Positions 7,851 through 15,563 of a stretch of 35,147 nucleotides of DNA are shown one piece after another (positions within the stretch are counted from its first letter, which is position 1; each line of letters starts with the position of its first letter). The translations under genes were made by a program, and so were the position numbers. The stretch is from Candidatus Babelota bacterium. Lineage in GTDB: Bacteria > Babelota > Babeliae > Babelales > Vermiphilaceae. The stretch is from assembly GCA_013287855.1 (NCBI GenBank), contig JABDCY010000005.1, forward strand, positions 19,338 through 54,484. Reading direction: 5' to 3'. The notes beneath the pieces were generated by a model that was given only the letters and a program-made list of their open reading frames with translations, did not search any database and was not told where the DNA came from.

Positions 7851-7867
7851 AAAACTCATGTGTGAAT

Positions 7868-8932
7868 ATGCAAAGAATAGTACAATTAACCCCTCCAGCT
7901 CTATCTGCAGAGCACATCAAAGAAAAAATAATATGCATTCGCGCACACCGCGAGCGCATATTTCAGATAGATGCCCAAAAGCTTCATGATAAGCTCATAA
8001 TCCATAATTATGGGCAAGGAGGCGCTGGCTGGACTTTCCTGTTTGGCTGTGTGCAAGAAGCAATCCGAAAATTTGAGCACGAAGTAGTACAAAATTCTCA
8101 CTACAAAAATAAACCCATAGCGGTTATTGGTGCTGGTTGTTATGGTCTACTCACTGCAATCATGTTGGCACGTAAGGGACACCGCGTGCGCATTATTGCC
8201 AAAGAAACTGAAAATCTCCCTTCGCACAAAGCTGCAGGTCTCTTTTTTCCACGACCACGCAAATGTTCCACGCAAGAAGAAATTGCTCAATTTTATGCAC
8301 GGGGCATGGAATCATATAGTGCTTATCTACAGATCATTGATGGCAGTCACCCTTTTATCAACCGTGGACCACAATTATTACCTGCCTATTTTGGACGCGA
8401 GATTGATCCAGGTTTTGGTCCTTACATTGCTGCAGGGCTCATCAAGCAACCAGAAGCAGTTACCATCAATTTTGGCAACAGCAAAAATTATGATGCGCTC
8501 GAGCACAGGATTGTTTACCTTAATGCCACAATTCTCATGCAAGAACTGTGGCGCACTATCAAAGAACTTGGAATATCGATTATCAAACAAGAAATAGCTA
8601 ATTTCGCAGACATTGAAGAATCAATTATTTTTAACTGTGCAGGTCTCGGAGCTAAAAAACTAACGGGTGATGCCAAAATTATTCCCGTGCAAGGGCACCT
8701 GATTACTTTGCAGCAGCAGCCAATCGAACAACTGCAGTATCTCATTAACTTCCAAGTTACCATGACTGATGAGCGAGGCGGACACCGAGAAGAGATAATT
8801 TATTTTGCACCCAAAGGAGATGGTATCGTTGGCACTACTTTTTTGCGGGGGACTGATTCGCCAACAGCCAATCAGCATGAATTCGATCGCTTGATTGAGC
8901 GATGCCGCAATTTTTTTGGTACAAATTTCTAG
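7868..8932 (+). CDS. D-amino-acid-oxidase-like FAD oxidoreductase with circularly permuted domain order
   Basis: The protein is about 354 aa. Residues about 22-68 (IICIRAHRERIFQI ... IIHNYGQGGAGWTFLFGC) match the motif that normally closes D-amino acid oxidases (ICxRPxR ... VIHNYGHGGxGxTxxWG). Here it comes first, and the FAD-binding Rossmann start (IAVIGAGCYGLLTAIMLARK, glycines at 88-93) follows. The rest is in normal order: KAAGLFFP, IIFNCAGLGAKKL, VQGHLITL, then YFAPKGDGIVGTTF and a final helix. All DAO parts are present, so this looks like a circular permutation, not a truncation. An in-frame GTG two codons upstream (7862) is an alternative start; neither has a strong SD. It is third in the ybaK operon. 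The substrate is unknown. Confidence 0.82.
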   Translation: MQRIVQLTPPALSAEHIKEKIICIRAHRERIFQIDAQKLHDKLIIHNYGQGGAGWTFLFGCVQEAIRKFEHEVVQNSHYKNKPIAVIGAGCYGLLTAIMLARKGHRVRIIAKETENLPSHKAAGLFFPRPRKCSTQEEIAQFYARGMESYSAYLQIIDGSHPFINRGPQLLPAYFGREIDPGFGPYIAAGLIKQPEAVTINFGNSKNYDALEHRIVYLNATILMQELWRTIKELGISIIKQEIANFADIEESIIFNCAGLGAKKLTGDAKIIPVQGHLITLQQQPIEQLQYLINFQVTMTDERGGHREEIIYFAPKGDGIVGTTFLRGTDSPTANQHEFDRLIERCRNFFGTNF

Positions 8933-8966: not shown

Positions 8967-9114
8967 GATGTCATCCTGAACTTGTTTCAGGATCCAAAAA
9001 ATCATGTAAATTTTTCACAATTTTGCTCTTAATTTTCATTTAAACACTATTAAATCAGCTAATACGGTTACATAAGTAAAAAAATGGACCCTGAAACGAG
9101 TTCAGGGTGACATC
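8967..9114. repeat. 148-bp MITE-like element with 29-bp terminal inverted repeats
   Basis: The left end, GATGTCATCCTGAACTTGTT..., and the reverse complement of the right end agree at 26 of 29 positions. The 90-base interior is AT-rich and non-coding. The end sequence (TCATCCTGAAC-TTGTTTCAGGATC type) resembles palindromic intergenic repeats common in many bacterial genomes. It could act as a large stem after the flavoprotein gene. Confidence 0.75.
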
Positions 9115-9226: not shown

Positions 9227-9682
9227 ATGATCGAACAAAAATTGCACACCCTCGGCATGACTCTGCCGCTCGTCTCTACTCCCATTGCAAATTATGTCCC
9301 CTTTGTTATCTCAAACAATCTCGTGCACATTTCGGGCCAATTGCCGATGCTCGATGGCAAGTTGCACTACAGCGGCAAACTTGGTGAAACTATTTCTACG
9401 GAAGACGGCCAAGCAGCAGCACGTTTGTGCGCACTTAACATTCTTGCACAGGTTAAAGCCGCCATTGGATCACTTGATCGTGTAAAACGCTGTGTCAAAA
9501 TCACCGGTTTTGTAACTGCCACAGCAGAATTTACGGACCACTCTCAAATTATTAATGGTGCATCAGATCTTATCGTGATGGTATTTGGCGATAACGGCAA
9601 ACATGCCAGAGCGGCCGTTGGCGTCAGTTCACTTCCGCGAGGAGCATCGGTTGAAATTGAAGCTATTTTTGAAATAGAATAG
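9227..9682 (+). CDS. RidA/YjgF/YER057c family protein
   Basis: RidA-type proteins are trimeric and hydrolyse reactive enamine/imine intermediates made by PLP enzymes; some subfamilies have other roles. The 151-aa protein, somewhat longer than the roughly 130-aa RidA proper and closer to the YjgH-like length, has VHISGQLPM, a long helix with AARLCALNILAQVKAAIG, and the signature HARAAVGVSSLPRGASVEIEAI. That signature includes the Arg that binds the substrate carboxylate and the Glu in VEIEA. The frame is open to 9191, but the ATG at 9227 is preferred because AAGGA lies five bases ahead. Confidence 0.9.
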   Translation: MIEQKLHTLGMTLPLVSTPIANYVPFVISNNLVHISGQLPMLDGKLHYSGKLGETISTEDGQAAARLCALNILAQVKAAIGSLDRVKRCVKITGFVTATAEFTDHSQIINGASDLIVMVFGDNGKHARAAVGVSSLPRGASVEIEAIFEIE

Positions 9683-11191: not shown

Positions 11192-11800
11192 ATGTCGAAA
11201 AAATTAATAATTTTTTTCATATTGTGTGTGGTACTCTGCATCCCTTTGGTATTTTCCAGAAAATTTCAACAAGCTGATCTCAATACCATTGTGCAACAGT
11301 CTATCCAATTGCCCGAAGAACAACGTCTTGATTTCATTTTACAAGAACTCAACAAAAAATATGGTACCACAACAAGGCCCAACTTCCATTTGTTCAATGG
11401 GGGTGGCGCTTTTGGCATCATCGGACTCGTGTATGCTTCGTTGAATGAATATCTTATTATTTTTGGCTCGGTGCTGCCCAATGGCGGCCATTCCGGCAGA
11501 TATTTCCTGAACTTCTCAGATTTTGTGTACCGCGGCAAAATCACGATCGCTTCACCAAAAGAATTAGAAGGCCGAGAAGTGAAAGAAGGACAAGCAACCT
11601 ATATGGCATGGGGTGATGCACACCATTATACCCTCGATAAAAATACCTGGATGGTTGAACATGCTCATGGGCTCACCATTTCAGGGTTGCCAATTATGAT
11701 AGCAAGTATTTTCACGACGACTGATATAGTTGCAATAGGATATTTAGTTTTTGATTATGTAAAGCATGTGGTGAAAAGTTTGATCGAAACAATATTTTAA
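11192..11800 (+). CDS. Sigma-1 receptor / ERG2 C8-C7 sterol isomerase family protein
   Basis: The 202-aa protein resembles human sigma non-opioid receptor 1 and fungal ERG2 along most of its length. There is one N-terminal membrane helix (about 4-22). [21 protein letters not shown] parallels the sigma-1 stretch [40 protein letters not shown] (about 92-110) parallels the GxxGHSGRY...SD motif, and [11 protein letters not shown] (150-160) parallels PNTWMVEYGRG. Asp110 and Glu156 align with human Asp126 and Glu172, which contact the ligand amine, and Tyr87 and Arg103 are also kept. The C-terminal membrane-associated helices are present. The SD AAGGAG lies six bases before the ATG. No other sterol gene is in the window. 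Role unknown; acquisition from a eukaryote is plausible. Confidence 0.9.
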   Translation: [202 protein letters not shown]

Positions 11801-12789
11801 CTACCTGTTTCCAGGCTTAAAGTTGTTGGTTTGTCGCTGGTAATTTCCATGCGCATTAAATCAACCATACGTGGCGTGCGATCATTATAGGTATGATAAT
11901 AATAGCGTTTATTATGCAGATCGCTTGCACTTGTCCATTGCGTAAATTCATATTCAACTTCACCGCCCTCTTTTTGACGTACTGAACCAAGTGGAATATC
12001 AAACAAATTAAGAATATGAAACGCTCTGCTCACCGCTTCTTGCTCACTCTTGATTTCTTTTGTACCTTGCGCAAATACGGTTGCGCGAACAAATCGAGAG
12101 GGTGAGGTAAAATCACCGGGCAAGCCAAGCAGCCCCGATCCTTGACCAAGTGGACCAAGATTGATAGCGCCAATTTGTACTTTTGGCACACTCAAAACTG
12201 ATAAATTAATATAATTTCTCAAATTAGTAATGTGCCAATCGAATGTTGGCGCATTAGTAAACACTCCCAGAGGATTGTCCGTCATCACAAGATTTCCGCC
12301 AACATATTCAATGACCAGACTATTGCCCGCTGCATCATGCACAATCGCATGCACGGGTGGCGTGATGCCCCATGCGGGCCAGATGGCATTAGATATCCGA
12401 ATTTTTGGCAATGCCTTGCGCACTTCATCAATCGTGGCAAAATTGCTCAATAGCCACGTGATCAACTCCCAGGGAGCAATCGAATCGGCAACTTGATCGG
12501 GAGAAACTACTTGATACTGCGCATATTCAGGAAAATAGAAAAGACCACCAGCAAGTCCACGCTCATTGACACCATCAATAATGCCAACAATATCAAAGGC
12601 ATTTGCGCCAACAACCGCATAGCGCGAGCGCCACTGCAAACCTTCTGGTTTGCTTGCAGGAGATGTGCCAATAAATTGATAATTGCGAGGGATCACAATT
12701 ATGTTAGAAGCTAAATCACGCGCAAATTCCAAGGTGCGCGCATATACTACTGCCCCATTTTGCGCTTTAAGCCTAATTCCAGTACACAT
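11797..12789 (-). CDS. Choloylglycine hydrolase / linear-amide Ntn hydrolase
   Basis: This N-terminal-nucleophile amidohydrolase family includes bile-salt hydrolase, penicillin V acylase and N-acyl-homoserine-lactone acylases. The 330-aa protein starts MCTGIRL, so Cys2 becomes the nucleophile after Met removal. Arg18 and Glu21 (YARTLEF) fill the R18/D21 region, Asn75 is in DGVNERGL, Asn179 is in VFTNAPTFDW, and Arg232 is in SPSRFVRA. The set needed for catalysis is present, except Glu instead of Asp at 21. No signal peptide is visible, so it is probably cytoplasmic. Its 3' end overlaps the convergent sigma-1-like gene by four bases. The substrate cannot be read from the sequence. Confidence 0.88.
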   Translation of the reverse strand: MCTGIRLKAQNGAVVYARTLEFARDLASNIIVIPRNYQFIGTSPASKPEGLQWRSRYAVVGANAFDIVGIIDGVNERGLAGGLFYFPEYAQYQVVSPDQVADSIAPWELITWLLSNFATIDEVRKALPKIRISNAIWPAWGITPPVHAIVHDAAGNSLVIEYVGGNLVMTDNPLGVFTNAPTFDWHITNLRNYINLSVLSVPKVQIGAINLGPLGQGSGLLGLPGDFTSPSRFVRATVFAQGTKEIKSEQEAVSRAFHILNLFDIPLGSVRQKEGGEVEYEFTQWTSASDLHNKRYYYHTYNDRTPRMVDLMRMEITSDKPTTLSLETGS

Positions 12790-14311: not shown

Positions 14312-15547
14312 CTACAACCCAAGTATTTGATTTATGCTCGTATTAGAGAAAATATTAAAGGGATCAATATGATTTTTGATCTCAGTAAATTTTATGAAAT
14401 TTTCTCCATATAATTCATTGCATTTTTCGTGATCCAAAAAATTAACCTTTCCCCAATGTGGACGACCGTTTAAAGAATACATAGCTTCTTCAAACGCTTT
14501 GAAAAATTCATAATATTTGGCTTCAGCATCAGTTCCAATATTCAAATACACCACATCATAATCGGCTGCAGGACTCAAGTAGGAATTCTTGTCAGCGCAC
14601 ACAAATCGACAAACTACTTCTTCAAGTGCAAATCCATTTTGTGTCCATTGAGGTACAAGCTTTTGGATAATCGCGATAGCTTGTGGCAGTAAGTCTAGTG
14701 GAACTGCAATTTCACACGCCATGCCAAGTTCAGTACTAGTATCCCATTGCAAGGCGTCATAACTAGTTTTTAAAGAAAGTGAAGAATTGGGTTGGACTTT
14801 TACATTTATTCGATGCCAACTATCTGCATAGACTACATCATCACGTAATTGCCAACGAAATTGAAAATAATCGGATTGTTGAAACAATTGCCGATATTGA
14901 GCAAGAAGTTCGTCTAAACTCATGGTTTTTTGCACATAGTCAAGCATAAAAAGTGGCTCACATTGCATAGTTACGCAATAGATAACTCCCAAAGTTCCCA
15001 AACTCACACATGCTGCTTTGAAAAGTTCTGGATTTTGTTGGGCTGATAAAACATGTACAACCCCATCGGCACTGATTAACTCAATTTCAGTAATAAAGCT
15101 TGATAACGTTCCTGAATGACCTGTGCCATGCGTAGCCGTGCATACTGCACCAGCTAACGTCATACCCCCCATCGCAGGAAGGTTTGAAAGCGCCAAATCA
15201 TAGTGAGCTATAGCTTTATTCAAGTCTTGAATTCGTATTCCTCCTTGAGCCCGCACGCGCAAAAGATTTTTATCCACAGATAAAATGGTATTCAGCCCTG
15301 TCATGTCAATCATATAGTCATCGGAACACGCAATGGCACTGAACGAATGGCCTGTGCCCATAACAGAGACTTTATGATGAGCTTTGGCAGCTTCTTTAAT
15401 AATGCTTATGAGTTCTTCTTTTGTGGTAGGATTCCATACTTTTTTGGGATTACACGACTGATTCCCCGCCCAATTGTGCCATTCTGCGAGAAGTTGATGA
15501 TTAAAAATTAGGCTCAGAAAAATGAGATAAGATTTTATGGATGGCAT
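14312..15547 (-). CDS. Exported aldonolactone oxidase-like flavoprotein
   Basis: The 411-aa protein belongs to the FAD-linked oxidases related to D-arabinono-1,4-lactone oxidase and L-gulonolactone oxidase, which oxidise sugar lactones. The FAD domain contains VSVMGTGHSFSAIA, whose His is the covalent flavin site in relatives, then LRVRAQGGIRIQDLN and GGMTLAGAVCTATHGTG. The C-terminal part has GRPHWGKVN and ends IDPFNIFSNTSINQIL, both typical of the subfamily. A signal peptide (MPSIKSYLIFLSLIFNHQLLA) predicts export. The ATG at 15547 is preferred over a GTG at 15553; the SD is weak. The electron acceptor and substrate are unknown. Two palindromic motifs lie just upstream. Confidence 0.85.
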   Translation of the reverse strand: MPSIKSYLIFLSLIFNHQLLAEWHNWAGNQSCNPKKVWNPTTKEELISIIKEAAKAHHKVSVMGTGHSFSAIACSDDYMIDMTGLNTILSVDKNLLRVRAQGGIRIQDLNKAIAHYDLALSNLPAMGGMTLAGAVCTATHGTGHSGTLSSFITEIELISADGVVHVLSAQQNPELFKAACVSLGTLGVIYCVTMQCEPLFMLDYVQKTMSLDELLAQYRQLFQQSDYFQFRWQLRDDVVYADSWHRINVKVQPNSSLSLKTSYDALQWDTSTELGMACEIAVPLDLLPQAIAIIQKLVPQWTQNGFALEEVVCRFVCADKNSYLSPAADYDVVYLNIGTDAEAKYYEFFKAFEEAMYSLNGRPHWGKVNFLDHEKCNELYGENFIKFTEIKNHIDPFNIFSNTSINQILGL

Positions 15548-15563
15548 GATCACTCACTAATTT

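Follow-up and report, generated by a model that had tools for sequence, protein, structure and literature searches.

The protein encoded at positions 7868..8932 (+) of the window, i.e., the complete stretch of 35,147 nucleotides analyzed here, is very likely a natural circular permutant of the D-amino acid oxidase (DAO) superfamily and a predicted FAD-dependent oxidoreductase; this reading explains the data as a whole best. The segment in front of the FAD-binding Rossmann start, corresponding to the last fifth of the canonical enzyme, is the usual DAO C-terminus with the catalytic arginine, the HNYGxGG signature and the final helix. The permutation had been proposed in the initial annotation and was borne out by a rotation scan, by swapped profile blocks, by a confident structure model and by 143 retrieved frames, partly redundant, in which the order is kept.

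Gene structure and order of the conserved parts

The reading frame is open to the stop codon at 8930-8932 and codes for 354 amino acids from the ATG at 7868 or for 356 amino acids from a GTG at 7862. As the ATG is aligned with the ATG of the relatives L012 and L034, the gene coordinates given in the initial annotation are right, and judged from this conservation the ATG is the likelier start codon. For the residue numbers used here, the GTG is counted as residue 1, and 2 has to be subtracted for numbering from the ATG. The Pfam DAO family (PF01266) matches residues 86-352 with 80.4 bits (E 2.5e-22), which is above the gathering cut-off of 27.9 bits.

Along the protein, the motif CIRAHR (residues 25-30) is followed by the DAO signature IIHNYGQGGAGWTFLFGC (residues 46-63, 7997..8050 (+)) and then by the predicted FAD-binding motif GAGCYG (residues 90-95, 8129..8146 (+)). 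The signature, HNYGxGG...G in general form and HNYGQGGAG at residues 48-56 of this protein, was identified by PDB matches and by the alignment of relatives and is located at the N-terminal side. It belongs to a relocated segment (residues 3-77, 7868..8092 (+)) that corresponds to the canonical DAO C-terminal part (pig DAO about 267-334) according to a phmmer search, the rotation scan and the alignment, and that ends with the model helix 57-77. The remainder consists of a linker between the old C- and N-termini (residues 78-83, 8093..8110 (+)), delimited by the helix end at 77 and the strand start at 86 in the model as well as by the best rotation at 74-84, and of the FAD-binding and substrate part (residues 84-356, 8111..8929 (+)), which is equivalent to pig DAO 1-272.

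In the phmmer search against PDB sequences, residues 24-78 were aligned with residues 325-379 of the DAO 7ct4, and residues 86-348 with residues 3-263 of pig DAO (1dao). By these sequence similarities, both halves are homologous to DAO and their order is swapped. For the rotation scan, a profile was built from five canonical DAOs and the query was rotated at every second start position. The native order resulted in 89.6 bits over model positions 4-254. Rotations at 80-82 yielded 121.8 bits with model positions 4-316 in one collinear piece, and all rotations from 74 to 84 reached at least 121.1 bits. These are the best-scoring rotations of the scan, for which reason the site of the old termini was placed there.

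The collinear match after rotation and the single signature motif in the window agree with the earlier statement that each part occurs once and in cyclic order. Since there is only this one motif and the canonical DAO profile matches just the two blocks in the whole genome, a hidden second copy of the motif downstream, created by a frameshift, is excluded. A second motif or a fused tandem-duplication intermediate, the latter envisaged in the initial annotation, was searched for and not found.

When the canonical DAO profile was applied to 87 genomes of the window's phylum (Candidatus Dependentiae), each gene was matched by the blocks 3-258 and 259-32x in reversed order, which join at model positions 257-259 in most members; a full collinear canonical DAO was not found in these genomes. 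The profile is able to detect both orders, as it recovered a collinear canonical DAO in addition to a permuted one in genome G104. The order is also kept in full-length alignments of the window protein with 24 relatives of its phylum.

The window originates from a fragmented metagenome-assembled genome (48 contigs, 68% complete), in which an assembly error, a frameshift or a chimera might mimic a permutation. The probability of such an artefact is close to nil, because the gene is a single open frame with a single motif and many other genomes independent of this one share the order, among them the complete genome AP025250.1 (L033) and isolates of Polynucleobacter, Xanthomonas, Caulobacter and Brevundimonas. 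Alternatively, the N-terminal segment could have been gained separately and come to resemble a DAO C-terminus, with a loss of the true C-terminal segment, and the limitation of the Pfam alignment to residues 86-352 would fit such a history. It is very improbable, however, as the relocated segment aligns with the canonical C-terminus over about 60-70 residues and keeps the equivalents of Arg283 and Arg286, and as the rotated alignment continues from one block to the other with its junction at model positions 257-259.

Predicted structure and function

The structure of the permuted protein was predicted with AlphaFold2 using an alignment of 45 sequences. The model has a mean pLDDT of 95.6 and a pTM of 0.93, with values of 90-98 for the first 80 residues. 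Model residues 84-356 match residues 1-272 of DAO and D-aspartate oxidase (DASPO) structures with a Z of about 20 and an rmsd of 2.8-3.0 (VIA-align); as Foldseek and VIA-align are sequential aligners, this superposition covers model residues 84-356, not 1-79. The sequence homology and the confident global arrangement (high pTM) suggest that residues 1-79 take the place of the DAO C-terminal part. Only about eight residues connect the model helix 57-77 and the strand 86-89, which implies that the joined ends are close together. In a MAFFT local-pair alignment, the new termini are located at pig residue 267, between the long helix and the Arg283-bearing strand. In the proposed mechanism, the chain would have been opened after the long helix near this residue, the old C- and N-termini would have been joined by a short linker, and the permuted protein would fold to the ordinary DAO architecture.

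Active-site residues were compared in 48 permuted and 19 canonical sequences. The three glycines of GxGxxG are invariant in both sets. R27 (7940..7942 (+)), the equivalent of the catalytic Arg283 of pig DAO, is an arginine in 48/48 permuted and 19/19 canonical sequences, and R30, the equivalent of Arg286, is likewise present in 48/48 permuted sequences. Y314 (8801..8803 (+)) is the equivalent of pig Tyr228; this position is occupied by tyrosine in 21/24 sequences of the window's clade and 17/19 canonical sequences, but in only 10/24 of the other permuted sequences. The lid tyrosine of pig DAO, Tyr224, is replaced by E310 in the window protein. Since this position is also variable among the bacterial canonical sequences compared, Tyr224 is a mark of the mammalian enzyme and not of the family.

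In pig DAO, Arg283 and Tyr228 hold the substrate carboxylate. Because their equivalents are kept, a substrate with an alpha-carboxylate is favored, most simply a D-amino acid. The predicted function, judged from these residues, is the FAD-dependent oxidation of a D-amino acid or a similar amino carboxylate; in this context, we infer FAD binding, the type of substrate, the use of oxygen and the link to a neighboring RidA protein. GAGCYG and the relocated HNYGQGG segment would bind FAD, R27 and Y314 would hold the carboxylate, and a hydride would be transferred from the alpha carbon to the flavin. The resulting imino acid would be hydrolyzed to a keto acid and ammonia, perhaps with help from the RidA protein. 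As the genome codes for an alanine racemase and a D-Ala-D-Ala ligase, D-amino acids are likely to be present and a D-amino acid substrate is plausible. One 781-aa frame with two D-Ala-D-Ala ligase C-domains (G000:C11:15905-17650), also present in most relatives searched, is a fused tandem ligase in the window's phylum.

A different activity of a correctly recognized permutant, i.e., the conversion of another amine or amino acid derivative or a dehydrogenase reaction with an acceptor other than oxygen, especially in exported branches, is a serious possibility, though not the favored one. Several pocket residues besides Tyr224 are not conserved, many members carry Tat-like or lipoprotein-like signals and the Pfam assignment is no narrower than the broad family PF01266. 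Moreover, as Tyr224 is replaced and the Tyr228 position is variable in other permuted branches, substrates may differ. On the other hand, D-amino acid and D-aspartate oxidases are the top solved matches, above glycine and sarcosine oxidases, and the protein has kept the two arginines as well as the DAO signature, which argues against a different activity.

Distribution, origin and genomic context

The permuted order was found in 27/101 genomes of the window's phylum and in 15/299 genomes of a survey around the Xanthomonas genome G102; collinear permuted matches were obtained in 13/151 genomes around the Chlamydiae genome G103. Around G104, where the canonical order is commoner, 3/198 genomes contain the permuted order. 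Permuted members are present in Polynucleobacter, Xanthomonas, Caulobacter, Brevundimonas, Alteromonas, Rickettsiaceae and Holosporales as well as in MAGs of Planctomycetota, Acidobacteriota and Gemmatimonadota. In total, 172 frames were matched by the family profile, of which 143 are permuted, 24 have the canonical order and five are partial; redundant copies of the same gene are counted in this set, and the 24 canonical-order frames were fetched as such. Taken together, the permuted protein occurs in no fewer than six bacterial phyla and seems to go back to a single ancient event. A search for relatives with the same order in other intracellular bacteria had been suggested in the initial annotation; many relatives do exist, and the order is an old family-wide trait without restriction to intracellular bacteria. 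In a Chlamydiae MAG, two separate permuted DAO genes are adjacent with a one-base overlap (L037:2775-5095), a pair that, judged from the tree, is a later duplication. On a plasmid of Mesorhizobium onobrychidis, a permuted DAO homologue (L118:3932-4995) is annotated as two overlapping CDS and is probably a frameshifted copy.

The tree was calculated from 73 sequences, namely 48 permuted ones that had been rotated back, 19 canonical DAOs and six canonical-order sequences as an outgroup. All 48 permuted sequences lie on one side of one branch (97/84, SH-aLRT 84, 96% of bootstrap trees), a support that is good but not overwhelming. Another branch (100/97) separates the 19 canonical DAOs from the rest, and the six outgroup sequences stand apart. 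Since the permuted sequences form one clade, a single permutation event is the simplest history, and the canonical order of the outgroup makes the permutation the derived state. The canonical order, with the FAD motif first and the signature last, is absent in the window protein and in all members of the permuted clade, which is therefore classified as a permuted sister clade and not as canonical DAO. Horizontal transfer is suggested by the window's own clade, in which Dependentiae, Chlamydiae, Rickettsiales-type and further sequences are intermingled. The permutation would accordingly have arisen once and would then have been inherited and transferred among bacterial phyla.

By simple pattern matching in the redundant set, a twin-arginine-like N-terminus was detected in 51/143 and a lipobox-like site in 28/143 permuted frames, and the twin-arginine pattern in 0/24 canonical-order frames. 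The window protein has no Tat-like or lipoprotein-like signal and begins directly at the family core. Canonical DAO starts at its first buried strand, and we hypothesize for this reason that the permutation, as one event, could ease the addition of N-terminal signals. Rather doubtful is the wider scenario in which an old permutation of single origin split the DAO family in two and freed the N-terminus for Tat or lipoprotein signals, the branch spread largely in exported form and the signal-less Dependentiae proteins are secondary cytoplasmic descendants.

Upstream of the permuted DAO gene, a YbaK-like tRNA-editing protein and a metallo-beta-lactamase-fold protein are encoded. A RidA/YjgF-family gene (9227..9682 (+), PF14588 and PF01042) for a possible imine hydrolase and a gene for a release-factor-like protein are located downstream. 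Of these neighbors, only the release-factor-like gene recurs in close relatives. RidA would fit the imine product of the predicted oxidase, but apart from the window the two genes were found paired at a single locus, in the alphaproteobacterial MAG L063. There, a RidA-family frame (L063:3258-3590 (-)) with 71% identity to the RidA of the window lies beside a permuted DAO, and a joint transfer of both genes is possible. A conserved gene neighborhood pointing to a pathway was not found among the loci compared, and as the neighbors are mostly not recurrent, they were not used to assign a function through an operon. In the interval that separates the DAO gene from the RidA gene, an inverted pair of near-palindromic repeats, CCTGAACTTGTTTCAGG (8975-8991) and CCTGAACTCGTTTCAGG (9090-9106), was observed for which none is expected by chance; it could be a dispersed repeat element. 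Further genes of the window code for a choloylglycine hydrolase-family protein (11797-12789 (-), PF02275, 2.5e-74) and a D-arabinono-1,4-lactone oxidase-like protein (14312-15553 (-), PF04030 and FAD_binding_4). The bacterium is probably host-associated.

Comparison with known enzymes and permutations

DAO is among the most studied flavoenzymes and is used as a tool in biotechnology. In the open-access literature, no report of a permuted DAO, DAAO, glycine oxidase or FAD-dependent oxidoreductase was found. Among the matches listed, there is neither a one-piece PDB match to the permuted-family profile nor an NCBIfam model above its cut-off, and the annotated plasmid homologues are named just FAD-dependent oxidoreductase. 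Sequential profile and structure searches give permuted proteins only as partial matches. A large permuted branch of a textbook enzyme thus seems to be unrecorded in the literature and databases searched, although it may have been noticed elsewhere. The branch is of interest for protein evolution and flavoenzymology: it is a natural test of chain order against fold, FAD affinity and catalysis, it offers new termini for engineering, and with a single event permutation and export signals can be compared.

Permutation by duplication is one of the two main models for circular permutation (PMC3320104). It can explain the saposin/swaposin pair (PMC3320104), in which, as in the permuted DAO, one domain is cyclically reordered with its content conserved. 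The fold of saposin/swaposin is different, and for the permuted DAO no fused intermediate, not even a partly duplicated one, was found.

The glycine oxidase ThiO and other PF01266 oxidases share PF01266 and the FAD-binding fold with the window protein. Its score for the ThiO model TIGR02352 (50.8 bits) is below the curated cut-off of 250.8 bits, and the canonical-order outgroup, ThiO-like by our reading, is located outside the group of DAO plus permuted sequences. The closest known enzymes are DAO and DASPO (pig 1kif/1dao, human 6rkf), to which the window protein is homologous over nearly the full length once it is rotated, with the same predicted fold for residues 84-356 and with equivalents of GxGxxG, Arg283, Arg286, Tyr228 and HNYGxGG. 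It differs from them by the swapped blocks, an identity of about 20% and the loss of Tyr224, and many of its relatives carry export-type signals.
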